Origin: a bacterium
GTDB lineage: Bacteria; Patescibacteriota; Minisyncoccia; Phycocordibacterales; Phycocordibacteraceae
Assembly: GCA_021836725.1 (NCBI GenBank)
Contig: JAKBHL010000008.1
Location: 1 to 37,996 of the forward strand
Direction of reading: 5' to 3'
Length of the DNA stretch: 37,996 nt
Shown: piece after piece, positions 1 to 37,990 of the stretch
How the letters are laid out: each line of letters begins with the position of its first letter
Position numbering within the stretch: the stretch's first letter is position 1
Notes under the pieces: generated by a model
What the model saw: only the letters and a program-made list of their open reading frames with translations
What the model was told of the DNA's origin: nothing
Databases searched by the model: none
Program-made: the position numbers and the translations under genes

Positions 1-222
1 GGCCGTTCGCGCGGCTTCGGTTTCGTTGAGATGGCTTCCGAAGCGGAAGCGCAGGCGGCTATCGACCGTTGGGACGGCAAGGAGATGGATGGGCGTACGC
101 TCTCGGTCTCTTTTGCGCGTCCGCAAGGTGATCGCCCGCCGCGCCGCGAAGGCGGTTTCGGCGGCGCCGATCGCGGCGGATACGGCGGCGGCAATGGCGG
201 TTACGGTCGCGGCGGATACTAA
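1..222 (+). CDS. C-terminal part of an RRM-type glycine-rich RNA-binding protein (5' truncated by window edge)
   Basis: Frame 1 reads GRSRGFGFVEMASEAEAQAAIDRWDGKEMDGRTLSVSFARP (RNP1-like RGFGFVEM and typical RRM end) followed by a Gly/Arg/Tyr-rich tail; stop at 220-222. Confidence 0.9.
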   Translation, partial: GRSRGFGFVEMASEAEAQAAIDRWDGKEMDGRTLSVSFARPQGDRPPRREGGFGGADRGGYGGGNGGYGRGGY

Positions 223-300: not shown

Positions 301-330
301 TTGACACGCTGGTCTATGCCGTGTTACTAT
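301..330 (+). promoter_or_regulatory. Sigma70-type promoter for the HfaA/HfaB-like operon
   Basis: TTGACA (301-306), 18-nt spacer, TACTAT (325-330), about 90 nt before the ATG at 420. Confidence 0.7.
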
Positions 331-419: not shown

Positions 420-866
420 ATGAAACTGAACTTCCGTGTTCTGGTTTTGGGGATGCTTTGCGTTCTCATTTCCGCGTATCTCGCCCCTCCCGCGTCTGCG
501 GCTTCGCAAAGCGCGTCGGCGACGTGGGGGGATTCCGTAACGATTACCAATGCAACCGCGGCATACAACAATGCACTGACAGGGTATGTCATGCGGCATC
601 GCATCGGTCCCTACAGTTCGGCGATGATCACGTACACCGATCGCAGCACGAACTACACCACGACGAACTGTACTGTCGCCGGAGGGTGTCAGACGGGCGG
701 TTCGACGATCTCCGTCAACGGGTATACCGCAACGACGGTGACTGGGAACGGGAACGTGACCACGACCGGCGTTACTACGACCGGCACGAACCAGACCTCG
801 ACGGCATCGTCGGTGGTCACTCCCGGTGGCTCCATCAACACCATCACGATCGGCGGAGGGCGTTGA
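420..866 (+). CDS. Secreted Thr/Asn/Gly-rich protein, possible HfaA-like partner of the CsgG-family gene
   Basis: ATG at 420; signal peptide MKLNFRVLVLGMLCVLISAYLAPPASA; beta-prone T/N/G-rich mature region; ends 1 nt before the CsgG-like gene. The HfaA call rests mainly on position. Confidence 0.6.
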   Translation: MKLNFRVLVLGMLCVLISAYLAPPASAASQSASATWGDSVTITNATAAYNNALTGYVMRHRIGPYSSAMITYTDRSTNYTTTNCTVAGGCQTGGSTISVNGYTATTVTGNGNVTTTGVTTTGTNQTSTASSVVTPGGSINTITIGGGR

Positions 867-867
867 A

Positions 868-1743
868 ATGAACAAGGCCCTCTTGCTCATGATTGTGGCG
901 CTCACCACGCTGTCGCTTGGCGCGTGCGCGAGCACCGGGAATCTTCGTGAAGGCGTGCCGCTGGTCCAAGGGCCTGCGATACGGAACGTAACCGGCCCCT
1001 ATGACGCCGCGAAAGCGTGCGTCAAGGGAATCCCCGAAACGGCGACTATCAACGTCGGTGTCGGGGATGTCCGGGATGTGACCGGCCGCATGAGCGTCGT
1101 CGGAAACGGCAACGGCTCGTTCTTGCCGATTGTCGCCACCAAGATGATGGAATCATCTCTCGCGGACACGGGCGTCAAGCTCGTGGACATGAGCAATACG
1201 TATCGCCAGCTGGTGGACTGGTACGCCCAGAAAGGGCTCTTGAGAGGAGCGAAGCTGTTCGTCCCGGAGTATCTGGTGGAAGGAACCATATCGTCCCTCG
1301 ACTTTTTGCCCGGGAAGGCATCGTCGTTCCACATCGCGGGCGTGGGGTACGATTCTCGTACCTATCAGGCGGTCGGACGGGGAGATTTCTCCCTTTCGAC
1401 GTTCCCCTTCGGCACGGCGGCCGGCGGATATATGGTTGCCACAACCAAGGTCGCGAAGGAGTTCACTGCGGTCGAAAACGGCGGTGGTGCGTACGAATTC
1501 GTCGGCGGCGGTACTGGCGCGCGGTTTGCCTCATTCAGTCTCGACAAAGGAGAACGCGAACCGATGCAGTATACGGTCGGATTCATGACCGATTATGCTG
1601 CCGTGGATCTGGTCACGACGTTGCTTCAAACGCTTGTGAGCGAGGGGAAAATCCCTCACCCGCACGCGACGATGACAAAGATCCACGAGTGCCGGGAATT
1701 GCTTGAGGAACCGGACACTGCGTCCGCATCGAAAACGAAGTAA
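868..1743 (+). CDS. CsgG/HfaB-family lipoprotein (curli/holdfast-anchor secretion channel-like)
   Basis: ATG at 868; lipobox LSLGAC|AS; INVGVGDVRDVTGR..., ...LLRGAKLFVPEYLVEGTISSLDF and a repeated hydrophobic/Gly pattern resemble the CsgG/HfaB family. Confidence 0.75.
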   Translation: MNKALLLMIVALTTLSLGACASTGNLREGVPLVQGPAIRNVTGPYDAAKACVKGIPETATINVGVGDVRDVTGRMSVVGNGNGSFLPIVATKMMESSLADTGVKLVDMSNTYRQLVDWYAQKGLLRGAKLFVPEYLVEGTISSLDFLPGKASSFHIAGVGYDSRTYQAVGRGDFSLSTFPFGTAAGGYMVATTKVAKEFTAVENGGGAYEFVGGGTGARFASFSLDKGEREPMQYTVGFMTDYAAVDLVTTLLQTLVSEGKIPHPHATMTKIHECRELLEEPDTASASKTK

Positions 1744-1760
1744 CCGCAGCAAAGCAGTGT

Positions 1761-1789
1761 TTGACGGCTCGCAAGAGCTGTGCTAGTCT
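1761..1789 (+). promoter_or_regulatory. Sigma70-type promoter for the repeat-rich secreted protein
   Basis: TTGACG (1761-1766), 17-nt spacer, TAGTCT (1784-1789) with an extended -10 TGC. Confidence 0.6.
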
Positions 1790-1835
1790 GGAGAAGCTTG
1801 TGCGTTCCACGCTTAAGCGTAGTACCTTGCAACAC

Positions 1836-1861
1836 CCCCTCCGGGAATCCTCCCGGAGGGG
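1836..1861 (+). promoter_or_regulatory. 5'UTR stem-loop immediately before the RBS
   Basis: Perfect 11-bp stem cccctccggga / atcc / tcccggagggg, then gaggag RBS and ATG at 1880. Confidence 0.7.
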
Positions 1862-1879
1862 AAACACTGAGGAGTCGTT

Positions 1880-2383
1880 ATGAAAACCAGCAAAACGAGT
1901 CTGCTGTTCGTCACCCTCACCATGATGGCCTTCGCTTCGGTTCCGGCCTTTGCCGGCGACCACGACCACCATCCGGCGCCCGTCGACATCAACGTCGGCG
2001 TGCTCACGAATGGGGTCAGTCAGAACGCGCTCGCCTCCGCCTTCGCCAACGACGGCGTGATCGCGAACGCGACTGCGGCCAATGGTATCGTCAGCATCAC
2101 CGATACGGTCGATCAGCATGTCGGCATGAATGTCGGCATCGCGACCGGCTATATCGATCAGGATGCGAATGCGATCAGCAACAGCGATGGCTACAGCAAC
2201 GCGACGGCAACGGCGGCAAATGCCGTGGCCAGCCTGGCGGCCAGTCCGGCCAGTCCGGCGGTCAACGTCGGCGTGTTCACGAGCAACGTCTCGCAGGACG
2301 TCTCGGCCATGGCGACCAGCTTCACGACCGCAAATGCGGCCGCGACGGCTGCCAATGCTGTCGTCTCGATCAACATTCACTGA
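1880..2383 (+). CDS. Secreted repeat protein, candidate curlin/HfaD-like amyloid or beta-solenoid subunit
   Basis: Signal peptide ending ...ASVPAFA|GDHDHHP; three repeats around (I/V/M)NVG(V/I)xTxx(V/I)xQ(D/N)xxAxA...NATAANAVVSI; no cysteine in the mature region. Confidence 0.7.
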   Translation: MKTSKTSLLFVTLTMMAFASVPAFAGDHDHHPAPVDINVGVLTNGVSQNALASAFANDGVIANATAANGIVSITDTVDQHVGMNVGIATGYIDQDANAISNSDGYSNATATAANAVASLAASPASPAVNVGVFTSNVSQDVSAMATSFTTANAAATAANAVVSINIH

Positions 2384-2411
2384 TCTTTCATCTGAGCTTG
2401 GATTGCTCACG

Positions 2412-2439
2412 GCCCCCGCACATCGTGCGGGGGCTTTTT
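2412..2439 (+). terminator. Intrinsic terminator after the repeat protein
   Basis: gcccccgcac / atc / gtgcgggggc followed by TTTTTC. Confidence 0.9.
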
Positions 2440-6030: not shown

Positions 6031-6707
6031 AATCGTCCTATGCGCTCCCTATCGCGATCATTGCGGGCGGATTAATAATCGCCGGCGCCGTATATTTTTC
6101 AATTGCAAAAAAAGAACCTTCGACAAGCTCACTCGCCGGCAATCCCGCGCTGGTGCGGCCGGTCGGCCCGACCGATCATATTTTCGGGAACCCCGCAGCC
6201 AAGGTCGTGATCGTCGAATACGCTGATTTTGACTGCCAGTCCTGCAGGGGCTTTAACGAAACGCTCCATCAAATCATCGCGAACGAGGGTGCGAGTGGCA
6301 AAGTCGCTTGGGTGTACCGGGAATTCCCGCTTACGCAAATCCATCCGAATGCTATGAATGACGCCCGCGCCGCCGAATGCGTCGCAAAGACCGCGGGCAA
6401 TGAAGCGTTCTGGAAGTTCGCCGATTCCCTCTTCGCCAATCAGCCGGCCGATCCGATGAACTATGGCGTACTCGCGTACGCGGCAGGCGTCTCGGGAAGC
6501 GCTTTCGCCGCCTGTTACGCCGATGCCGCGGCAACGGTCGATGCGCGCATCCAGGCCGATCGACAGAACGCCCTTGCTATCGGAGCGCGGGGCGCGCCCT
6601 ACTCGCTCATCCTCACCGCGGGCCAAACGCCTATCGTCATGGATGGCGCTTATCCCTATGACGTCGTAAAACAGCTGGTCGACCAGGCACTCGCGAAAAT
6701 ACCGTGA
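6027..6707 (+). CDS. Membrane-anchored DsbA-family thiol oxidoreductase
   Basis: ATG at 6027; N-terminal TM; VVIVEYADFDCQSCRGFNETL (CxxC) ... GARGAPYSLIL (cis-Pro). Confidence 0.9.
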   Translation: MKSSYALPIAIIAGGLIIAGAVYFSIAKKEPSTSSLAGNPALVRPVGPTDHIFGNPAAKVVIVEYADFDCQSCRGFNETLHQIIANEGASGKVAWVYREFPLTQIHPNAMNDARAAECVAKTAGNEAFWKFADSLFANQPADPMNYGVLAYAAGVSGSAFAACYADAAATVDARIQADRQNALAIGARGAPYSLILTAGQTPIVMDGAYPYDVVKQLVDQALAKIP

Positions 6708-6721
6708 CTCATTTACTGGAA

Positions 6722-6767
6722 TCGGCCAGAATGCCCCGTCCGCTTTGCGGCGGGGATAAATGGCCGA
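6722..6767. repeat. Hairpin repeat, second family, copy 1
   Basis: Outer arms tcggcca/tggccga around AATGCCCCGtCCGC-ttt-GCGGCGGGGAT. Confidence 0.75.
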
Positions 6768-6820
6768 AGTTAAACATGAGCGGCGGAGGCCGCATCCTTA
6801 TCCAGCAAAACACCCGGGCG

Positions 6821-6869
6821 GTCGTGCGCCAATGCCCCGCCAGCTTCGCTGCGGGGATGGCGACACGAC
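6821..6869. repeat. Hairpin repeat, second family, copy 2
   Basis: Outer arms gtcgtgcgcc/ggcg(a)cacgac around AATGCCCCGcCAGC-ttc-GCTGCGGGGAT; same architecture and bulge position as copy 1. Confidence 0.75.
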
Positions 6870-6874
6870 CTGTT

Positions 6875-9790
6875 TTACGGAGGCGGGATGAGGAATCCGA
6901 CTAGATCGCAGTAATCGCATACGGCAGGGTCGCATGCCGCGGTGAACGCGGAACCGTCTGCGATCGCCTGTGCCGCGGAAACGAGCTCCGCTTCGAGCGC
7001 TTCGACCTCGGCGTCGCTGATCGTGAAGCGGCGGGTAACGATGTCTCCTTTTTCGTTCGGCTCGACGAAGTGGAGTTCGGCTTCGCTTGTGGCATACCGG
7101 CCGTCTTTCTTGAGAAGCAGTTTGTAAAAAATAAGCTGGCGGTAGTAGTCGCCCGTGCTGTTTTTGGTACGACCCTTGATGTCATTTTCGCTTCTCACCT
7201 TGCCGGTCTTATAATCGACGACGAGGACCGAACCGTCCGCTTTCATATCCAGCCGATCGAGCTTCCCGGTAAGCGGCACGGTGCCGACGCCTGGAACGGC
7301 GAGCGATACTTCTATGGGAAATTCCGATTCGCGAATGTCTTTCATGGAGCGTCCCTCTTTCGCAAGATACGCGCGGAGCGCTTGCGTACCGGTTTCCGTG
7401 AGCGCTTCTCTATCGGGCGGGGTGATCGGAAGGCGCGACAGCTCGTGACGGAAAGCGGCGACGGCGTCTTCCGGCGCCGCTGTGCCCTTCCGTACGTTAT
7501 CGGCATAGGATTTCAGGCCCGCATGGATGGCCGTCCCGAAGAGCATCCGGGGCGTCTGCGCGTCCGGGAGCCGCAGGAGCGTACGGAAATAGTATTGCCA
7601 CGGCGAGGCGCTGTAGTTGTTAAAACCGGTTGGCGAAAAGCCCTGCGCAAGCAGACGCGCCTTCAGGAAGACGGGATCGAGTATCGTGCGCGGCGCATAC
7701 GGCGCGGGGGCAGAGACGGACGGCGGGAAATCCGCCTTTCTCAGGTGCGGTGCGAGGTCGGCGAGAAACCGAAGCGGCGTCTGCGCGCGATTCTCTTCGG
7801 TCGTCTCCGACCGTGTGATGATCACGCTGTCTTTGGCGCGCGTGAGCGCCACATAGAGCAAACGGCGCATATCGTGCTCATCGTCTTCGCTCTTAAGCAG
7901 CAGAGAGAACTCCTCGGCCCTTCCGCGCAGCCAGATTTCGTCGGTCGCGTGCGCGATGATGACGTGCGGGAACTCGAGCCCCTTCGCGGCGTGGACGGTC
8001 ATGATGCGCACGCCCGAACGCTTCGTGCGGGGACGCGGTATCTTGAGCTCGTACTTCTCGATGCGCGCAAGGTAGGCCAGGAAATCCGATGCCGTCGCGC
8101 TTGGATTCTCCTTGGCGAGGAATGCCGCTTCGCCCATAAAACCCTGGTATGCCTCGTACGCGCTCTCATTTTCGGCGAGAGAAAGCATCCCGGCGACAAA
8201 ACCGCTCAGATGGGCGAGCCGCGAAAGCCAGGGGACGAGCGGCGTCGCCGGCATCTCTTCTGAAAGTTTCGTGAGCTTCCGCATCCACGCGCGCATTTGG
8301 TCGGTGCCTTTCTCCGTAAGCACGGCGGCAAGCGGCTTCCCTTCCCGCGCAAGCGAAAGAAGCCGCATACGCTCCCCGAGCGTACCGGGCATGCCCGGTA
8401 AAAAGAGCGCGCGGGCAAGCGATGCTTCATCGTCAAGGTTCGCCGCGGCACGGACAAGCGCTATGAAAAGCAAGACCGCCGGATGCGCGAGCGCGCTTAT
8501 ATCCGCGCTCGCGTGGTCTTCCGGAATGCCGGCGGAGCGGAGCATCTCCGCCAGAGCGAGCACATCCGCGTTTTTCTTCGTAAGGATGGCGATGTCTTCG
8601 TACGGCACGCCCGATCCGCGGAGCCGTTCGATGAAGGCGCGGATGGCCCCGTGTTCCTCGCTCGGCGTACTGCATACCGCCTCGAACAGTTGCCCGCCCG
8701 CCCCGCGCGCGGCCTTGAGCCGCGGACGCAGTTTTTGGGAAGGCACGGGAGCGGGGGCGATGAGATCATGGGCCGCGAGGAGCAGGCGATCGGTCGAACG
8801 ATAATTCTCATCAAGCGATATGAGCGCCGCATCGGGATATTTTTCCTTGAAATAGAAAAACGAAGCGAGGGAAGCCCCTTGGAAACGGTAAATTGCCTGT
8901 TTTTCATCGCCGACGATGAAGAGATTCGGCGTGCCGTCGAAATCAGTGATGAGCTCAAGAAGGCGGTTCTGGGCCGGGTTCGCGTCCTGATGCTCGTCCG
9001 CGAGCACGAATTGCGAACGCTCTCCGACTTCCGCGCGGAATTCTTCGTTCTCTTCGAGCCCGCGCACGGCTTCGCCGATAAGGTCTGCGTAATCGTAGAG
9101 CGACTCTCTTTCGAGAGCCTCCTGGTACGCGGCGAAGAGCTCTGCGACCTCGAGATGCTTCTCGATGCGCTCGCGATACCTCAGATGTTCGCCCTTTTCC
9201 TTTCCTTCATGCGCGCCGCGCGCGTGAATGCGGTCGGGGTCGGCTATGAGGGCCTCGTGCAACGCGGCGAGTTCGGCTCGATAACTCTCCGGAGTGTAAT
9301 GCTCTTGTTTCAGCTTCTCCATAAAACCGAGAAGATCTTTCGCAGCGCGGTGCGGATTTTTCGGATTACGTATCTTCGTATAGGATCCCTCGTCGAGCAG
9401 CCTTTCCATGAGCGCGATACCGCGCACTGCCGAGAGATGCGTGCCAAGCGCGATGCGCGGGAACAGATCGGGGCGCAATTCGAGTATTGAACGGGCAAAG
9501 CTGTGGAACGTATGAATGCGGACGCGATACGCGGCCGTGCCGATGAAACGCGCGAGCCGGGCGCGCAGCGTCGCCACCGCACTGTCCGTATAGGTAAGTG
9601 CGAGGATTTCGTCCGGTTTCGCTCCGGCGGCCTTGAGGAGGATATTCCCGATGCGGAGCGCGAGTATCTGCGTCTTGCCGGTCCCGGGGCCGGCGATGAC
9701 AAGCACGGGGCCATAGATCGTATCGACCGCCATCTTCTGCTGCGCATTCAATTTTCCGTAAGCTTCTTCAAAGGAAGGCGTCGTTATCAT
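6875..9790 (-). CDS. UvrD/PcrA-like superfamily 1 helicase with C-terminal PD-(D/E)XK nuclease domain
   Basis: LNAQQKMAVDTIYGPVLVIAGPGTGKTQILALRI, DEHQDANPAQ, LYVALTRAKDSVIITRSE, VLVVDYKTGK. Confidence 0.95.
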   Translation of the reverse strand: MITTPSFEEAYGKLNAQQKMAVDTIYGPVLVIAGPGTGKTQILALRIGNILLKAAGAKPDEILALTYTDSAVATLRARLARFIGTAAYRVRIHTFHSFARSILELRPDLFPRIALGTHLSAVRGIALMERLLDEGSYTKIRNPKNPHRAAKDLLGFMEKLKQEHYTPESYRAELAALHEALIADPDRIHARGAHEGKEKGEHLRYRERIEKHLEVAELFAAYQEALERESLYDYADLIGEAVRGLEENEEFRAEVGERSQFVLADEHQDANPAQNRLLELITDFDGTPNLFIVGDEKQAIYRFQGASLASFFYFKEKYPDAALISLDENYRSTDRLLLAAHDLIAPAPVPSQKLRPRLKAARGAGGQLFEAVCSTPSEEHGAIRAFIERLRGSGVPYEDIAILTKKNADVLALAEMLRSAGIPEDHASADISALAHPAVLLFIALVRAAANLDDEASLARALFLPGMPGTLGERMRLLSLAREGKPLAAVLTEKGTDQMRAWMRKLTKLSEEMPATPLVPWLSRLAHLSGFVAGMLSLAENESAYEAYQGFMGEAAFLAKENPSATASDFLAYLARIEKYELKIPRPRTKRSGVRIMTVHAAKGLEFPHVIIAHATDEIWLRGRAEEFSLLLKSEDDEHDMRRLLYVALTRAKDSVIITRSETTEENRAQTPLRFLADLAPHLRKADFPPSVSAPAPYAPRTILDPVFLKARLLAQGFSPTGFNNYSASPWQYYFRTLLRLPDAQTPRMLFGTAIHAGLKSYADNVRKGTAAPEDAVAAFRHELSRLPITPPDREALTETGTQALRAYLAKEGRSMKDIRESEFPIEVSLAVPGVGTVPLTGKLDRLDMKADGSVLVVDYKTGKVRSENDIKGRTKNSTGDYYRQLIFYKLLLKKDGRYATSEAELHFVEPNEKGDIVTRRFTISDAEVEALEAELVSAAQAIADGSAFTAACDPAVCDYCDLVGFLIPPP

Positions 9791-9842
9791 AGTGAGAGTG
9801 TACCTTGCAAAAACACGCTTCGCATTCTCCCGAGCGGAGTGC

Positions 9843-9871
9843 TTGACATTTATGTCATATTCTGCTACGAT
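9843..9871 (+). promoter_or_regulatory. Consensus-like sigma70-type promoter for a small membrane ORF
   Basis: TTGACA (9843-9848), 17-nt spacer, TACGAT (9866-9871). Confidence 0.8.
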
Positions 9872-9906
9872 AGCGGCGTCCCCGAGACGGATTCAGAGGA
9901 CTCCTC

Positions 9907-9923
9907 CTACGAAGGTTTCGTAG
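9907..9923 (+). promoter_or_regulatory. 5'UTR hairpin
   Basis: ctacgaa / ggt / ttcgtag between the promoter and the AAGGAG RBS. Confidence 0.55.
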
Positions 9924-9953
9924 CGGCACGACACTCCCCAAGGAGACCCCATC

Positions 9954-10193
9954 GTGATTGGATTTCTTGAGTTCCTGGCGTTAGTCATGTGTATCGTAGC
10001 GCTTGTTCTTTCCGAGGAACGGTCATTCGGCATCAGCGTGTTTATGACTGCGACGGCAATCGTCCTCACGTACCTCGCCGTAGTGGAAGCCGATGTATTC
10101 TGGATTCCATCGGTGATCCTCGCATTCATCGGATACGTGAAGTTCTCTCAGTCCGTTCAGGACGCCCGAGAGAATAAAAAATTCCGTTCCTAG
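9954..10193 (+). CDS. Small membrane protein, 79 aa (GTG start)
   Basis: AAGGAG RBS before GTG; three hydrophobic segments; promoter upstream and terminator downstream. Confidence 0.8.
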   Translation: MIGFLEFLALVMCIVALVLSEERSFGISVFMTATAIVLTYLAVVEADVFWIPSVILAFIGYVKFSQSVQDARENKKFRS

Positions 10194-10210
10194 CACCTCC
10201 CCCGCTTGAG

Positions 10211-10236
10211 CCCCCTCAACACTGAGGGGGTTTCTT
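10211..10236 (+). terminator. Intrinsic terminator
   Basis: ccccctca / acac / tgaggggg followed by TTTCTT. Confidence 0.9.
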
Positions 10237-10265
10237 ACTAGAACTCATTTCAAACCCTCCGCTCG

Positions 10266-10361
10266 GGTATGCGACAGAAAGGAGTACGCCGTCTTTTTGT
10301 GCTCAAAAAGCGGCTCGTACTCGCGTCGTCACGCTCCGTAAGCCTCTTTCTGCCGCATACC
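10266..10361 (-). repeat. Palindromic element copy C, downstream of rpoD
   Basis: Imperfect arms ggtatgcgacagaaag / ctttctgccgcatacc; minus-strand core TACGGAGCGTGACGACGCGAGTACGAGCCGCTTTTTGAGCACAAAAAGACGGCGTACTC. Confidence 0.85.
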
Positions 10362-10463
10362 TCTCGCGGAGGCCGGTCAAATTTCCTAAGATGACATCTT
10401 AGGAGGAGAGAGCCCTTTCCTGCAGCATACCTCTCGCGTCGCCCTGGAGTTTTTGGATGGGTT

Positions 10464-11708
10464 CTAGTACGACTTCAGATGCCGCGCTTTATCGTGGAAA
10501 CGGATCTTTTCGAGCGCTTTCGCCTCGATCTGGCGGATACGCTCGCGGGTAACGCCGAACTCTCTCCCCACCTCCTCAAGGGTGTGGTAGATGCCGTCCA
10601 TGAGGCCGTGGCGCATTTCAAGGATCTTGCGTTCCTTCGGCGAGAGATCGTTCAGTATGGACCGCATCTGCTCCGCCAGGATGCGCTCGGAAGATTCTTG
10701 TATGGGCGACGGGATTTTGTCATCGGGAATGAAATCCCCGAGCGTCGATTTTTCATCGTCGTCCGAACCGATCGGATTCTCCAGAGAAAGCGTATCCTGG
10801 TTGATTTTTTCTATCTGATAAATCTTATCCGGCTCGACGCCCATTTCCACCGCGATCTCTTCCGCCTGCGGATCGCGGCCGAGCACTTGCGCGAGACGGC
10901 GCGAGACCTGCTTGTACTTGGCGATTGTCTCGACCATGTGGACGGGGATGCGGATGGTGCGCGATTGATCGGCGAGCGCGCGCGTAATCGCCTGGCGTAT
11001 CCACCACGTGGCATACGTCGAGAACTTATATCCCTTTTTCCAATCGAACTTATCCACCGCGCGGAAAAGACCGAGATTCCCTTCCTGGATGAGGTCAAGA
11101 AGCGTGAGATCGGGGCTGCGGCCGACGTACTTTTTCGCGATGGAAACGACGAGGCGCAAGTTGCTCCGTGCGAGGATGTTGCGCGCTTCGGCATCGCCTT
11201 TTTCTATGCGCTTCGCGAGCTCGCGCTCTTCGGCGGCGATGAGGAGCGGATACTGTCCGATTTCACGAAGATAGATCTGTATGGAATCGTAGCCTGTGGA
11301 ATGACGGTCTTTGATGTTGCGCGTCGCGAGATATTCGTCGGCGGCGTCTTCGAGCATGCCGCCTTCGAGCACGTCGACGCCCGCGATGGCAAAACGTTCG
11401 TAGAGCGACTCGAGGAAACTCACGTCATCTTCCACATGCGGAAAGGATTTCAGGATCTCGCTGTAGGTGACGTACCCGCGCTCTTTTCCCTTCTCAATGA
11501 GCTGCTCCGCCGAGAGCGCTTTCTGGGACACCGCCTTCGCTTTCGCGCCCCGCGAGGCAGCGCGCAGGACGTGTTTTGTTCGCGCACGCGCGGTACGCGA
11601 AGCGGCGCGAACGGATCTCGAAGTTTTCTTCTTTGCGGGCGCGCGGTGCACTGCCGGCTTTTTAGCGGTTTTGTGAGCGCTCTTTTTCTTTTTTGTGGAA
11701 GTCGCCAT
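10464..11708 (-). CDS. rpoD: Primary sigma factor RpoD with basic N-terminal tail
   Basis: [49 protein letters not shown] and [19 protein letters not shown]. Confidence 0.98.
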
Positions 11709-11741
11709 ACTGTGGAAATAAAAGTGGGAAGTAAGAGTGGA

Positions 11742-13430
11742 TCAATGCCCCAAAGCGGCGAGGCGTACAGAGAGTCTTGCGCACGCCGCCTGTGCATCTT
11801 CGACCTGAGAAATGTCGCGGGCGGCTTCGGCTCTACGTAGTCGTGCCACTGCTTCTTGATACGCTTCGCGGACTACCGCTTCTTCAAAAGCGTGAAGAAG
11901 CTCATCCGCGGCGTTCTCTTCCGGATCTTCGCCGAACCTCCGCTCCGCCTCAAACAAGGCAGGTTCCGGAAGGGTTTCAAGCGGCAACGCGTGAGCTTCA
12001 GTAATTCGAAGATACTCTGATTTGACGCGCTCCGCAAGCGGCGAGTCGGGATAGGCGTGAATAACGGCGAGAAGCTGTTCCGAGCGGATGGCGCTTGGTG
12101 CGCGCGCGGGCGTCTTCGATGTCCGATCTTCCTGAGCGCTCTTTTGCGCTTCCGGTTGCCGCGGGAGACGGCGAAGCGACTCCCGGACGGCTTCGTCCGA
12201 CAGCCCAAGCGAGCGCGCGGTGATGTGCGTAAAGTGTTCGCGCTCCATAGGGCTCGGGAGCGCAGAGAGCAGAGGAAGCACTATTTCCTCGGCGCCTCGC
12301 ACAAGCCGATGGAGATCGCGTTCTTGCTCGGCCAGTTCCGTGAGAAAGAATTCGACAATCGGTCTCGCTTCAGTGATGCGCTTCGTAAATCCGCCCGGGT
12401 CTTCGCTGATGAGATCGGCCGGATCTTTCCCCGCGGGAAGCCGAACCGCTTTTACCCGCATAAGCGAGGAAAGCGCAAGAGCCGCCGCGCGCGCAGTCGC
12501 CTTGAGTCCGGCCGGATCGGCATCGAGCACGAGCATGAGATTTTCGCTATAACGCTTCATCAGGCGGAGGTGGCGTTCGGAAAGCGCGGTGCCCGAAAGC
12601 GCGACCGCATTGGTAAATCCCGCCTGATGCGCGTGCAATACGTCCATTTGCCCTTCGACGAGCATGACGAATCCGCGGGCCCGTATCGCCTCTTTTGCGG
12701 TGCTCATGCCGAAAAGAATGTCGGACTTATGGTAGAGCTCGGTTTCCGGAGAGTTGAGGTATTTCGCTGGCTCGTCCGCCGCAAGCGCGCGCCCCGTAAA
12801 CGCTACGACATGACCCGAGGCATCGCATATCGGGAACAGGAGCCGGTTGCGGAACCGGTCGTAGTACGTGCCCTGCTTCCCGTCCGCCTCTTTTATCAAT
12901 CCCGCTTCGTGCAGCTCCCTTGTCGTGAATCCTTCGCCGGTCAGCGCTTCAAGCAGGGCGCGCCACGCATCGGGCGCGTAACCGAGTTGCCATGCGCGGA
13001 TCGTCTCGCCGGTGAGGCCGCGCTTCTTTGCATAGGTCTCGGCGGGGCTTCCGATAAGCCTGCCAGCGTACCAGGCGCTCGCGCGGCTCATGAGCGCGTA
13101 CAGGCGTTCTCTCTTTGACGCGTCTTCGCGGCTTTCTTTCCCTGCGTATTCGACAGGGATGCCCGCTTTCTCGGCGAGGATTTTCAGCGCGTCCTTGAAA
13201 TCCACGTTCTCGACTTTTTCAATGAACGAAAATCCGTCGCCGCCCTCGCCGCAGCCGAAACAGTGGAACGTGCCGCGTTCGGGGCTCACGTGGAAAGAAG
13301 GAGTTTTCTCCTTGTGGAAGGGACAGAGCCCCCGCAGTGACTTCCCCGAGCGCGTGAGCTTCACATACGGGCTCACGATCTCGACAATGGAGAGACGGTC
13401 CTTTATCAAAGCGACCGTATCCTGTGCCAT
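11742..13430 (-). CDS. dnaG: DNA primase
   Basis: SPYVKLTRSGKSLRGLCPFHKEKTPSFHVSPERGTFHCFGCGEGGDGF zinc domain and Toprim region VEGQMDVLHAHQAG. Confidence 0.98.
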   Translation of the reverse strand: MAQDTVALIKDRLSIVEIVSPYVKLTRSGKSLRGLCPFHKEKTPSFHVSPERGTFHCFGCGEGGDGFSFIEKVENVDFKDALKILAEKAGIPVEYAGKESREDASKRERLYALMSRASAWYAGRLIGSPAETYAKKRGLTGETIRAWQLGYAPDAWRALLEALTGEGFTTRELHEAGLIKEADGKQGTYYDRFRNRLLFPICDASGHVVAFTGRALAADEPAKYLNSPETELYHKSDILFGMSTAKEAIRARGFVMLVEGQMDVLHAHQAGFTNAVALSGTALSERHLRLMKRYSENLMLVLDADPAGLKATARAAALALSSLMRVKAVRLPAGKDPADLISEDPGGFTKRITEARPIVEFFLTELAEQERDLHRLVRGAEEIVLPLLSALPSPMEREHFTHITARSLGLSDEAVRESLRRLPRQPEAQKSAQEDRTSKTPARAPSAIRSEQLLAVIHAYPDSPLAERVKSEYLRITEAHALPLETLPEPALFEAERRFGEDPEENAADELLHAFEEAVVREAYQEAVARLRRAEAARDISQVEDAQAACARLSVRLAALGH

Positions 13431-24278: not shown

Positions 24279-26486
24279 TCATTTCGCCACGGCGACCGCT
24301 TCGTCAAATTTGACTGAGAGCAGCTTCGATACGCCGTCGCCGCCCATGGTGACGCCATAGAGGATACCTGCGCGGCTCATGGTCTCGCGGTTATGCGTAA
24401 TGACGATGAGCTGCGATTTCTGCGCGAGGTTCTCGATCATGTCGCCGTAGCGCCGGCTATTCGCTTCATCGAGGGCCGCATCGGTCTCATCCAGTATCAA
24501 AAATGGCGGCGGGTTCACCTGGCTCATGGCGAAAATGAGGGCGATGCTCGTGAGCGCGCGCTCTCCGCCTGAAAGCTGCATGAGGGAGCGTACTTTTTTC
24601 TTCGGCAGGTTGACGACGATCTCTATGCCGGGCCTCTCCTTTTCTTTGGGCATTCCCTCGTCGAGGGATTCTTCAAGATCCTCGCCTTCGGGCTCGACCT
24701 CCGGCTCTTCAAGAGCGAGCCGCGCGCCGCCGCCGCCGAACATGAGCGCGAAATATTCGCCAAGCGAAGCGTTGACCTGAGCGAGTCCGGCGGTGAAATG
24801 TTTCGCGAGCTCCGTTTCAAGATCGACGATGAGCGCGCGCAGGCCCGCGGCTGACGCGGCGAGATCGTCGAGCTCGCGCGCGAGGAATGCCTCGCGCTCC
24901 GATACTTCCTTATGCTCCTGTCGGATGTCCTCGCCGGTTCCTCCCGCTTCCTCAAGACGGATTTTTATGCGTTCGAGAGAGCGTTTGCGTTCTTCTTGCA
25001 CGCGCCGCTCTTCGGCGGGAAGCGCGGGCAGAGGCTCGTAGGAAAGCACGGCGGCGCCGGCAAGCGCGAGTGCTTCCGCCTTGTCGCGCTCGAGCTCTTC
25101 GGTGAGGAAACCGAGTGCGCGTTCGCGCGCGTCGCTTTTTGCGACCATGCTTTCCTCATGCGCTTTTGCTTGCGCGAGATCGAGTATGCGGCGATGCAGC
25201 TCCTTGCCGGTCTCGTCGTGCGCGGTCAGATCTTCGCGCGCGCGCGCGAGCGCCGATTTCGCCCGTTCGAGCTCCTCGGCGAGCGCGGAATCTTTACCGA
25301 GGAGCTCCGTACGTTCGTTCTCGAGCGCGTATGCGGCGTGCTCTTCTTCCGCGAGCAGGTCGTCGGCCGGCGCGATGAAACGGTCGACGAACGCGCGTAC
25401 CGCTCCGTGAAGCGCGTGTAATGCGGCACGAGCGGCTTCGAGGGTGTCTGCACGCACCGCCTGTTTTTCAGTCTCTTCCGCAAGAGCGCTGAGGGCTTCG
25501 CGCGGCACTTTTGCGTAGGGATCATTCACGACCTTGACGCTGCGCTGCTTGGCGGCGGCAAGCGATCCTTCGACGCGTCCGATCTCGCGCGAGAGGACGC
25601 TGCGCGTGCCCAGAAGACGTTCGACGTCCGTCTCCGCCTTACGTACCGTTTCGAGACGTTTCGCGCCTTCGGCGTCGCCTGTCGCCCGCTCCTCGATACG
25701 GGAAAGTTCTGCGGTCGCATCTGCAAGCCGTGCAGCCGCGTCTTTCTTTTCTTCGGCGATGGCGCGCTTCTCTTGCTCGAGAAAAGCGTCCTCGATCGCA
25801 AAATACGTCTGGCAAGCGCTCGTAAGGGTATCCCGGAGCGCCTGCGCGCGCTCGAGTTTCTTTACCTGGCTTTCGAGGAAGCGCAGATGTGGCGCAAGTT
25901 CCCGCCGGAGCGAATTCACCTGGGCGATATTGTCCTCGGTTTTCAGGAGTTTCTTCTCCGCTTCCTGCTTTTTGAATTCGTACACCCTGAGGCCGAGCGC
26001 GTCCTCGAGCATCGCGCGCCGGTCGCGCGGCGAGGCGAGCAATATCCGATCCGCCTCGCCTTGGGAAATGATATGGTGGCTCGTCTCGCCGATGTTTGCG
26101 CCGGCCAAAAGTTCCTCGATATCGCGCAAGCGCACGCGCGAACCGTTGATGGAGTATTCGCTCGTGCCGTCGCGGAAAGCCGCGCGCTCTATGATCACTT
26201 CATCGAAATCGATCTTGAAGATGCGGCGGGAGTTGTCAAACACGATGGCGACCGACGCGCGCATCAGGCGGGGCATTGAGTGAGAACCGCCCCAAATGAG
26301 ATCTTCGGCGCGCTTGCCGCGCATGCTTTTCATCGACTGTTCGCCGAGCGCGAAGCGAAACGCCTCGGCGACATTGCTCTTGCCGGAACCATTCGGTCCC
26401 ACGATCGCCGTGGTCACACTCGAAAAATTCAAGACGGTTTTCTTGGCAAAGGATTTGAAACCGACGATTTCGAGCCGTTTGAGCAT
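24279..26486 (-). CDS. smc: SMC-family ATPase, short form with no recognisable hinge
   Basis: MLKRLEIVGFKSFAKKTVLNFSSVTTAIVGPNGSGKSNVAEAFRFALGEQ; LSGGERALTSIALIFAMSQVNPPPFLILDETDAALDEANSRRY; only 735 aa. Confidence 0.9.
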   Translation of the reverse strand: MLKRLEIVGFKSFAKKTVLNFSSVTTAIVGPNGSGKSNVAEAFRFALGEQSMKSMRGKRAEDLIWGGSHSMPRLMRASVAIVFDNSRRIFKIDFDEVIIERAAFRDGTSEYSINGSRVRLRDIEELLAGANIGETSHHIISQGEADRILLASPRDRRAMLEDALGLRVYEFKKQEAEKKLLKTEDNIAQVNSLRRELAPHLRFLESQVKKLERAQALRDTLTSACQTYFAIEDAFLEQEKRAIAEEKKDAAARLADATAELSRIEERATGDAEGAKRLETVRKAETDVERLLGTRSVLSREIGRVEGSLAAAKQRSVKVVNDPYAKVPREALSALAEETEKQAVRADTLEAARAALHALHGAVRAFVDRFIAPADDLLAEEEHAAYALENERTELLGKDSALAEELERAKSALARAREDLTAHDETGKELHRRILDLAQAKAHEESMVAKSDARERALGFLTEELERDKAEALALAGAAVLSYEPLPALPAEERRVQEERKRSLERIKIRLEEAGGTGEDIRQEHKEVSEREAFLARELDDLAASAAGLRALIVDLETELAKHFTAGLAQVNASLGEYFALMFGGGGARLALEEPEVEPEGEDLEESLDEGMPKEKERPGIEIVVNLPKKKVRSLMQLSGGERALTSIALIFAMSQVNPPPFLILDETDAALDEANSRRYGDMIENLAQKSQLIVITHNRETMSRAGILYGVTMGGDGVSKLLSVKFDEAVAVAK

Positions 26487-26856: not shown

Positions 26857-26932
26857 GCCCCGCTTCTGCGGGCTTTCTGCTCCGCTTCCTGCTTGCTCTA
26901 CCCCTCCCCGCGGGCTATTTCCTTTTCGCCGA
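26836..26932 (-). pseudogene. Partial duplicate of the rnc 3' end
   Basis: About 97-nt near-identical copy of 27419-27514, with a 1-nt insertion and CAG to TAG. Confidence 0.9.
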
Positions 26933-27071
26933 GCGCGAAGCGAAACGCCTCGGCGACATTGCTCTTGCCGGAACCGTTCGGTCCCACGATCGCCGTGGTC
27001 ACACTCGAAAAATTCAAGACGGTTTTCTTGGCAAAGGATTTGAAACCGACGATTTCGAGCCGTTTGAGCAT
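26898..27071 (-). pseudogene. Chimeric 57-codon ORF: smc codons 1-49 fused in frame to an rnc C-terminal fragment
   Basis: MLKRLEIVGFKSFAKKTVLNFSSVTTAIVGPNGSGKSNVAEAFRFALGE|KEIARGEG*; 26925-27071 matches 26340-26486 except one base; junction at shared ttcgccga. Confidence 0.9.
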
Positions 27072-35548: not shown

Positions 35549-37990
35549 TCACGCGCCGAGCGCGGCGAGCGCGCGGGCAAGCGCAAGCTTCGCGCCGGTT
35601 ATCCCCGCCGAATAGCTTGAGTCAATCGCCGTGGCGAGTGCGGCGACGAGCTGTTCGAGATGCGGCGTGGTAAGGCGCGCCGTCAGGCGGCTTATGCCGG
35701 CATCGCAAGCGGTCCCGTCGATGCGCGCGCGGTATACGTCGTCAAGGAGGCAGACGGCGTCAAAGAGCAGCCGTTCCGGCTTCCCTCCCCCGCGCACGTA
35801 TTCCCGCAGTCCGGCAAATACCGCGGTACGATCGCCTTCGACGAGCGCCAAGACAAAACCCCGCACCTGCGGCGCTGCACCGGCTTCCGGCGCGCTCTCC
35901 TTCGCGACTGTCTCGACACGCTCGCCGATCGGTTCGACGTTTTCATATATGGATTCGACATTCTGCGTCTTCACGGCACGATCGACGACTGGCGCGTGAG
36001 TCTGATGCGAAAGGCCTTTCACGATATCCTCTATGGAGAGCGCGCCGTTATGTGCGAAAGATTTGAAACCCTCATAGGCGGAATACCCGCGCGATGCTTG
36101 AGGCGTCTCGGGACGCGGGGGCGCGATTGCCACGGGCGCTACGGTGTCCGCCGGTTTCTGCACGGTGTTGAGCGTCGCGGAAATCTTTTCTCCGAAGCGA
36201 CGTGCGCGGCCGTAGGCAAACGGCACGGCGCCGAAGAGGATGAGATAGGCAAGCGCGAGCGACCAGGCGACAAGTGCAAACCAGTAGAGCGTCGTCCCGA
36301 CGGGTCCGAGATCGAGGCCGGTATAAGGTATCTGCGAAAGGTACAGATATGCGAGCGGTTGCGTGCCCGCATGAGGAAGCGCTGAAAGTGTGATGACGGG
36401 CGGGGGTGGCCCGCCGCCTCCGCCGCAGTTGCTGGTGCACCCGCCGCTACCGCCTGTCACAACAAGCGTTGCGGTACAGGTGAGCGTCTGGCCGGTTTGC
36501 GCATGAAAGGTTCCCGTATAGGTATAACTACCGACTGTTGCCGGGGAGACGATGATTGAGCCGGGCGAGCTTGTCGCGGTCGCAATGCCGTTGCTGATGT
36601 CGACATTTGAGATTCCGCTGCCGCCCCAGGCAAGCGTAGCCGAGCCGCCGGTGGTGTAGCTTGTCGGCGAGACGGTGAGCGAGCAGGTTGGGCCGCCGCC
36701 TCCGCCGCCTCCGCCGTTCACTGAAACAGCCGCGGAACACGTTGCGGTATCTCCGGACGGACTCACGACCGTACCGGTGAATGTGGTATCGGCCGTAATC
36801 GCTCCCGAGCGTATCGATCCGCCGACGGCGGGCGATACGGAACCGATCCCGTGATCGATGGTGAACGTATCGGCATGTGTCGTTGTCCAGGTGAGTGTCG
36901 TGTAGTCGCCGGTACTCACGCTCGTCGGCGAAGCGGTGAGCGTGCAGGTGGGGGCGGAGGGCGGAGGCGGGGTCGAGGTGACTGTCACGGTAGCGGCGCA
37001 GTGGACGGTGCCGCCGGAACCGGTCGCGGTGCCGGTGTAGGTGGTCGTTGTCGGCGGAGAAACGGACTTTGAACCGGAAGCAACCGGTATAACCGGACCG
37101 ATACTTTGATCAATTGAAAACGAAGTGGCATTGGTTGTCGTCCAGCTGAGCGTCGAGGAGCCGCCCGTCTGGATTGCGGTCGGAGAAGCGCTGAGCGTGC
37201 AGGTGGGAGCAGCGGGCGGGGGCGGGGTTGAGGTGACCGTCACGCTCGCGGCGCAGTGGACGGTGCCGCCGGGACCGGTGGCGGTGCCGGTGTAGGTGAT
37301 GGTCGCGGTCGGCGAGACAGACGTCGAGCCGGCGGCGACCGGCGCGAGAGAGCCGATATCCTGATTGATCGAAAATGCCGAAGCGTTAGTTGTCGTCCAG
37401 CTGAGCGTCGAGGAGCCGCCCGTCTGGATTGCGGTCGGAGAAGCGCTGAGCGTGCAGGTGGGAGCTGTGGGAGGCGGAGCAACGGTTACTGCCGCCGCAC
37501 ACGTCGTTTCTCCGCCCGGACCTTTCGCGGTCAAAGTATAGTTTGTCGTCGTAACGGCAAAAATCAGTTTCGCCCCGGAATTCACCGGTGTGACCGAGCC
37601 GACGCCGTTATCTATACTCGTTGACGTCGCGCCGGTCGTTGTCCATGAGAGCGTGGTCAAGCCGCCTCCATACGGGAGCGAAGTCGGATTTGCCTTGAGC
37701 GTGCAGGTGGGGGCGGGGGGCGGAGCCACGGTAACGATGGTCTGACACTGCGTCTGACCGCCGGCACCCGAGACCGTCATTGTAAACTGCGTTGTTATGG
37801 ACTCGGTGACGCCTTGCGAACCGGATGAGCTTGCCGGAATCCATCCTGAGGTAACAGTACCTGCTGTGCCGTTTGCATCGCTACTTTGGATGAGCATATC
37901 CGAAGCCGCGCTCGTGGTCCATGAGAGAACCGTCGAGCCGCCTCCATACGGGAGCGTAGATGGGCTGACAGAAAGAGTGCACGTCGGCAC
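35549..37990 (-). CDS. Large surface protein with Ig-like/PKD-like tandem repeats, TM segment and cytoplasmic domain (probably continues beyond the window)
   Basis: Six repeats starting PTC(T/S)L...; TM TLYWFALVAWSLALAYLILFGAVPF; C-terminal helical domain ...LLFDAVCLLDDVYRARIDGT...SSYSAGITGAKLALARALAALGA. Confidence 0.85.
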   Translation of the reverse strand: MPTCTLSVSPSTLPYGGGSTVLSWTTSAASDMLIQSSDANGTAGTVTSGWIPASSSGSQGVTESITTQFTMTVSGAGGQTQCQTIVTVAPPPAPTCTLKANPTSLPYGGGLTTLSWTTTGATSTSIDNGVGSVTPVNSGAKLIFAVTTTNYTLTAKGPGGETTCAAAVTVAPPPTAPTCTLSASPTAIQTGGSSTLSWTTTNASAFSINQDIGSLAPVAAGSTSVSPTATITYTGTATGPGGTVHCAASVTVTSTPPPPAAPTCTLSASPTAIQTGGSSTLSWTTTNATSFSIDQSIGPVIPVASGSKSVSPPTTTTYTGTATGSGGTVHCAATVTVTSTPPPPSAPTCTLTASPTSVSTGDYTTLTWTTTHADTFTIDHGIGSVSPAVGGSIRSGAITADTTFTGTVVSPSGDTATCSAAVSVNGGGGGGGGPTCSLTVSPTSYTTGGSATLAWGGSGISNVDISNGIATATSSPGSIIVSPATVGSYTYTGTFHAQTGQTLTCTATLVVTGGSGGCTSNCGGGGGPPPPVITLSALPHAGTQPLAYLYLSQIPYTGLDLGPVGTTLYWFALVAWSLALAYLILFGAVPFAYGRARRFGEKISATLNTVQKPADTVAPVAIAPPRPETPQASRGYSAYEGFKSFAHNGALSIEDIVKGLSHQTHAPVVDRAVKTQNVESIYENVEPIGERVETVAKESAPEAGAAPQVRGFVLALVEGDRTAVFAGLREYVRGGGKPERLLFDAVCLLDDVYRARIDGTACDAGISRLTARLTTPHLEQLVAALATAIDSSYSAGITGAKLALARALAALGA
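36930..37480 (-). repeat. Nucleotide-level tandem repeats (about 260-bp period) encoding Ig-like units
   Basis: cagctgagcgtcgaggagccgcccgtctggattgcggtcggagaagcgctgagcgtgcaggtgggagc occurs near 37143 and again near 37400. Confidence 0.85.

Follow-up and report, generated by a model that had tools for sequence, protein, structure and literature searches.

A recurring HfaB/CsgG-family gene cassette in Patescibacteria as a candidate system for surface attachment

Results and discussion

A patescibacterial chromosome carries a three-gene cassette (A, B and C) encoding a small secreted protein, an HfaB/CsgG-family protein with a lipobox and a repeat-rich secreted protein, which we regard as probably an hfaABD-type system gained by lateral transfer and serving to display adhesive proteins at the surface of the cell. 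The cassette lies in the window, by which we mean the whole stretch of DNA that was analysed (contig 5, 37,996 nt), within a 616,033-bp assembly of 16 contigs that is 98.85% complete (G000). To our knowledge, host attachment by Patescibacteria is poorly known beyond pili, and a cassette of this kind, which recurs, has spread horizontally and is related to the adhesin anchors of diderm bacteria, offers a concrete candidate for this role. It also raises a question about the envelope, namely what purpose an outer-membrane lipoprotein ring might serve in cells for which no outer membrane is known and in which no lipoprotein enzymes are detected. In the open literature searched, we found no description of CsgG, HfaB, curli or holdfast in Patescibacteria; the parts are of known kinds, and what those papers leave undescribed is their setting, the fact that they recur in Patescibacteria, and the lack of lipidation enzymes.

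Layout and control elements

An earlier note on this DNA had proposed for positions 420-2383 a small secreted protein, a lipobox-bearing HfaB/CsgG-like protein and a repeat-rich secreted protein, and this layout was borne out, with the open reading frames as it gave them. The features are as follows, where L002 is a 132-kb contig (JAJYCP010000001.1, isolate BP9.bin55), the sole close relative in our scan of genome contigs.

1-222, plus strand: 3' end of an RRM-type RNA-binding gene, the conserved left neighbour (gene complete in L002)
301-330, plus strand: sigma-70-like promoter TTGACA-18-TACTAT upstream of gene A, from a consensus scan
420-866, plus strand: gene A, 148 aa, predicted small secreted Ser/Thr/Asn-rich protein with a signal peptide
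868-1743, plus strand: gene B, 291 aa, HfaB/CsgG-family protein whose signal peptide ends in LGAC
916-927, plus strand: lipobox LGAC of gene B, Cys20
1761-1789, plus strand: promoter-like TTGACG-17-TAGTCT before gene C, read from the sequence
1836-1861, plus strand: 11-bp hairpin just upstream of the ribosome-binding site of gene C, present in L002 too
1880-2383, plus strand: gene C, 167 aa, predicted secreted protein with a signal peptide and three repeats of about 45 aa, in the position of HfaD
2411-2435, plus strand: intrinsic-terminator-like hairpin and T run after gene C, conserved in L002
2466-3314, plus strand: prmC/hemK-like methyltransferase gene, the conserved right neighbour

Genes A and B are separated by one base and genes B and C by 136 bp, a gap that contains the weak promoter-like site and the 11-bp hairpin. 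N-terminal segments resembling signal peptides were found in all three proteins, and the internal repeats of C (period 45 aa) gave a best self-alignment score of 87, whereas none of 300 shuffles exceeded 56. The RRM gene is followed by a terminator-like hairpin of its own. Both hexamers of the sigma-70-like site upstream of A are identical in L002, one such site having been found against 0.8 expected by chance in the stretch scanned. The site before C is weaker and below the reach of the consensus scan; it is kept in L002, with TAATCT as its second hexamer, and C, as proposed earlier, stands behind a promoter-like site of its own.

Identity of protein B and its partners

When profiles were used, B emerged clearly as a real HfaB/CsgG homologue by sequence. 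The window copy alone led to a partial match with the NCBIfam HfaB model (E 6e-6), but with 25.7 bits it missed the cut-off of 300 bits, and no match to CsgG was obtained in Pfam or in a PDB search. A tblastn search over plasmids with window B gave a single match (E 3e-7), a CsgG/HfaB protein encoded by Pacificitalea manganoxidans that in turn passes the Pfam model for CsgG with 41.5 bits. A profile built from CPR copies of B only retrieved CsgG structures from the PDB at E 1e-7, a five-sequence profile including proteobacterial relatives did so at E 8e-20, and all 11 aligned B proteins matched NCBIfam HfaB at E<=0.01, with the window copy far below the cut-off. As AlphaFold2 gave no usable model for B (pLDDT 32, two-sequence alignment) or C (pLDDT 31), the fold of B rests on profile-sequence homology to CsgG. 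Both transmembrane hairpin regions of CsgG align in B at similar length; the lipid-facing register of the window hairpins has a mean of -0.01, compared to 0.84 in E. coli CsgG, and their alternation (p 0.29) is not significant, nor is it in the diderm Pacificitalea protein. Hairpin amphipathicity is weak in the B proteins of both the window and L002, and for window B this makes a pore uncertain. The C-terminal extensions of the long B proteins from three other genomes (G820, G914 and G876) showed no Pfam match.

For gene A, a leave-one-out HMM gave 14.3 bits, a score reached by 0 of 200 shuffled decoys, and the A proteins of the window, L002, G726, G1060, G1025 and G820 form one family (0/200 decoys each). 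A thus appears HfaA-like by position and family, the family being one within CPR, to which the Pacificitalea A protein showed no link. The C proteins yielded no common HMM and are not alignable with each other, so HfaD membership of C rests on position and character. Neither window A nor window C had Pfam matches to CsgE, CsgF or curlin repeats.

A genuine and selected locus

L002 contains A, B and C at the same site as the window and with the same junctions, at identities of 92% (A), 94% (B) and 89% (C). The dN/dS ratios between the two are 0.15, 0.11 and 0.14 respectively and fall within the range of three neighbouring genes (0.07-0.21), showing that the cassette is under purifying selection. 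Its GC content matches that of its neighbours. In relatives with an empty site the RRM gene lies directly upstream of prmC; the gap between them is 141-343 bp in six genomes of the same genus, where it holds no open frame of more than 60 codons, and is larger in three more. These empty sites make an insertion on the branch leading to the window and L002 the most likely origin of the cassette at this site. None of the 33 other same-genus genomes surveyed had a match to window B. The independent contig with shared junctions and the empty sites in relatives exclude the mis-join about which the earlier note had been cautious and place the cassette in a CPR genome.

Distribution and phylogeny

The models NF037935 and PF03783 proved insensitive in surveys, failing to recover even B of the window itself, and later profile surveys took their place. 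At class level such a survey found the cassette in G726, and at order level in 7 of 377 genomes, namely the window's own, G1060, G1025, G968, G820, G914 and G876; a phylum-wide sample, the broadest profile survey, yielded nothing beyond the window's own genome and a single marginal match. The order A-B-C was found in seven CPR genomes besides those of the window and L002 (loci L015 and L025-L030), each at different loci, so that the suggested survey of related genomes has revealed a recurring arrangement. These seven genomes belong to the same order or class as the window (Paceibacteria-like, the class name being inferred). Proteins flanking several of the cassette loci match the window genome (DnaK-like 74%, SecD-like 53%, UMP-kinase-like 58%), which indicates that these loci are on CPR chromosomes, whereas L028 and L030 have no such flank match and their CPR placement rests on binning. 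The empty sites, together with the patchy distribution at differing loci, support horizontal acquisition as the earlier note had supposed. The G1060 cassette (L025) is located between UMP-kinase-like and secF-side genes; on contig 16 of G000 these genes are 0.6 kb apart, which makes a reciprocal empty site. Two other CPR genomes (L004 and L005) encode CsgG-domain proteins that lack A and C partners, one of these proteins with a lipobox.

In a tree of B proteins, the window, L002, G1060 and G1025 form one group (support 100/98), and a protein from G770, a further CPR genome, falls with E. coli CsgG (100/100); the deeper order is weak, with G968 and others weakly placed. Window B groups outside CsgG, in line with the earlier view of an HfaB-type rather than a true curli protein. 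The phylogeny that had been called for delivered this part but not the donor lineage, as it took in only three proteobacterial non-curli HfaB relatives and with these names no donor and gives no count of transfers.

Comparison with known systems

The gene order in Caulobacter is hfaA-hfaB-hfaD. The cassette resembles this system of C. crescentus in that a small secreted protein, an HfaB/CsgG lipoprotein and a further secreted protein are encoded together, but differs from it in the score of window B (25.7 of 300 bits), in a C protein with no detectable family similarity, and in a host with no known outer membrane and apparently without Lgt, LspA and Omp85. In Caulobacter, HfaA and HfaD arrive at the outer membrane in an HfaB-dependent manner, and cells that lack any one of the anchor proteins shed their holdfast (PMC6707917). 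The same three-gene layout is present on plasmid pDY25-D of P. manganoxidans (CBW24_RS18440, RS17635 and RS17640: a small secreted protein, HfaB and a repeat-rich protein), whose CsgG/HfaB protein is 26-28% identical to B; unlike the window's genome, the host there is an alphaproteobacterial diderm, and A and C are not alignable with confidence. With curli (type VIII secretion) the cassette shares a B protein in the CsgG fold family by profile, but it has no CsgE, CsgF or curlin-repeat gene, and B stands outside CsgG. A complete curli operon was observed in G770, a CPR genome of the window's class (contig 6, L016, 132000-149000, at 6587-12580), comprising CsgE (E 3e-25), CsgF (E 2e-42), CsgG, two curlin-repeat proteins and an outer-membrane-barrel-like gene; a ribosomal protein operon is on the same 207-kb contig.

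Lipoprotein and outer-membrane machinery

Among the nine B proteins from CPR cassettes, eight retain the lipobox Cys. HMM searches at maximum sensitivity, with all filters off, detected no Lgt anywhere in the 616,033-bp assembly, and their control recovered left-out known Lgt proteins at E<=1e-45; LspA was likewise not found in the assembly with a two-sequence HMM, run with filters off and without a positive control. Pfam searches agree on both missing enzymes, and since the Pfam Lgt control missed B. subtilis, the absence of Lgt in other genomes is less sure. By Pfam, G726 alone among nine cassette or curli genomes has Lgt. LspA is also present in G726 and was not seen in the window's genome, that of L002 or G770. 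G726, with both enzymes, holds the one B copy that has no lipobox, and Lgt went undetected in all seven genomes searched among the eight that keep the lipobox Cys. Omp85 was absent in four genomes tested, the window's among them, which leaves the insertion of a beta-barrel unexplained. We know of no outer membrane in Patescibacteria, and the apparent absence of Lgt, LspA and Omp85 from the genome sharpens the paradox, a point that the earlier note had missed. A simple lipobox filter passed 2 of 649 predicted proteins, B being one of them; the filter is crude, as it missed the lipoboxes of two diderm HfaB proteins. The other protein that passed (L050, G000 contig 1, 40001-50339; contig positions 49626-50165, minus strand) has 179 aa, the motif LGACASPGG and no Pfam family, and lies near a contig end.

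Proposed function

By analogy with HfaA-HfaB-HfaD of Caulobacter, the cassette probably serves attachment. A, B and C would exit through Sec, and the signal peptide of B, or lipidation via another route, would keep B at the membrane. By the same analogy B may assemble a CsgG-like ring to which A and C are anchored and which perhaps also leads them to the outside; A and C would form an adhesive, possibly amyloid-like surface structure for sticking to a host cell or a biofilm. As no outer membrane is known in the group, anchoring and nucleation at the surface would be the main tasks of the ring, rather than those of an outer-membrane translocon.

The weak hairpin amphipathicity in window and L002, together with the partnerless CsgG-domain proteins of L004 and L005, would fit a poreless CsgG-fold surface protein, a soluble or tethered oligomer for wall maintenance or stress, with A and C as unrelated small secreted proteins. 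We give this reading limited weight, as eight CPR loci other than the window, and the Pacificitalea plasmid too, share the A-B-C order, which speaks for a single functional unit. It seems unlikely that B is instead a functional CsgG-type channel in a real outer layer, either an outer-membrane-like envelope of the cell's own or a diderm host's outer membrane, into which the episymbiont would insert it: B preserves the hairpin regions of CsgG at comparable length, most CPR copies keep the lipobox Cys despite undetected Lgt, and G770 has its curli operon with the barrel-like gene, but Omp85 is absent where tested and the window hairpins are weakly amphipathic. An improbable, bolder proposal is that a CsgG-family secretion ring works in Patescibacteria without Lgt, LspA and Omp85, located in an as yet unrecognised outer layer of the episymbiont or, after insertion, in its diderm host's outer membrane; the host, or some novel pathway, would then modify the conserved Cys.

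Very little speaks for a functionless relic of recent transfer or an artefact of assembly or binning. The absence from the 33 other same-genus genomes and the missing lipoprotein enzymes could be read in this way, but such a reading is already contradicted by the shared junctions on L002, the empty sites in relatives, dN/dS values of 0.11-0.15 across all three genes and a GC content like that of neighbouring genes. Next to these readings, the preferred one remains an adhesin-anchor cassette of the hfaABD type.

Other features of the window

A 150-bp direct repeat (26337-26486 and 26922-27071; 99% identical, 585 bp apart) represents the 5' end of an smc-like gene duplicated upstream of the gene, either a duplication or an assembly artefact. 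The minus strand at 35549-37990 encodes a large candidate surface protein, which combines a membrane segment with numerous Cys-containing repeats that resemble one another.
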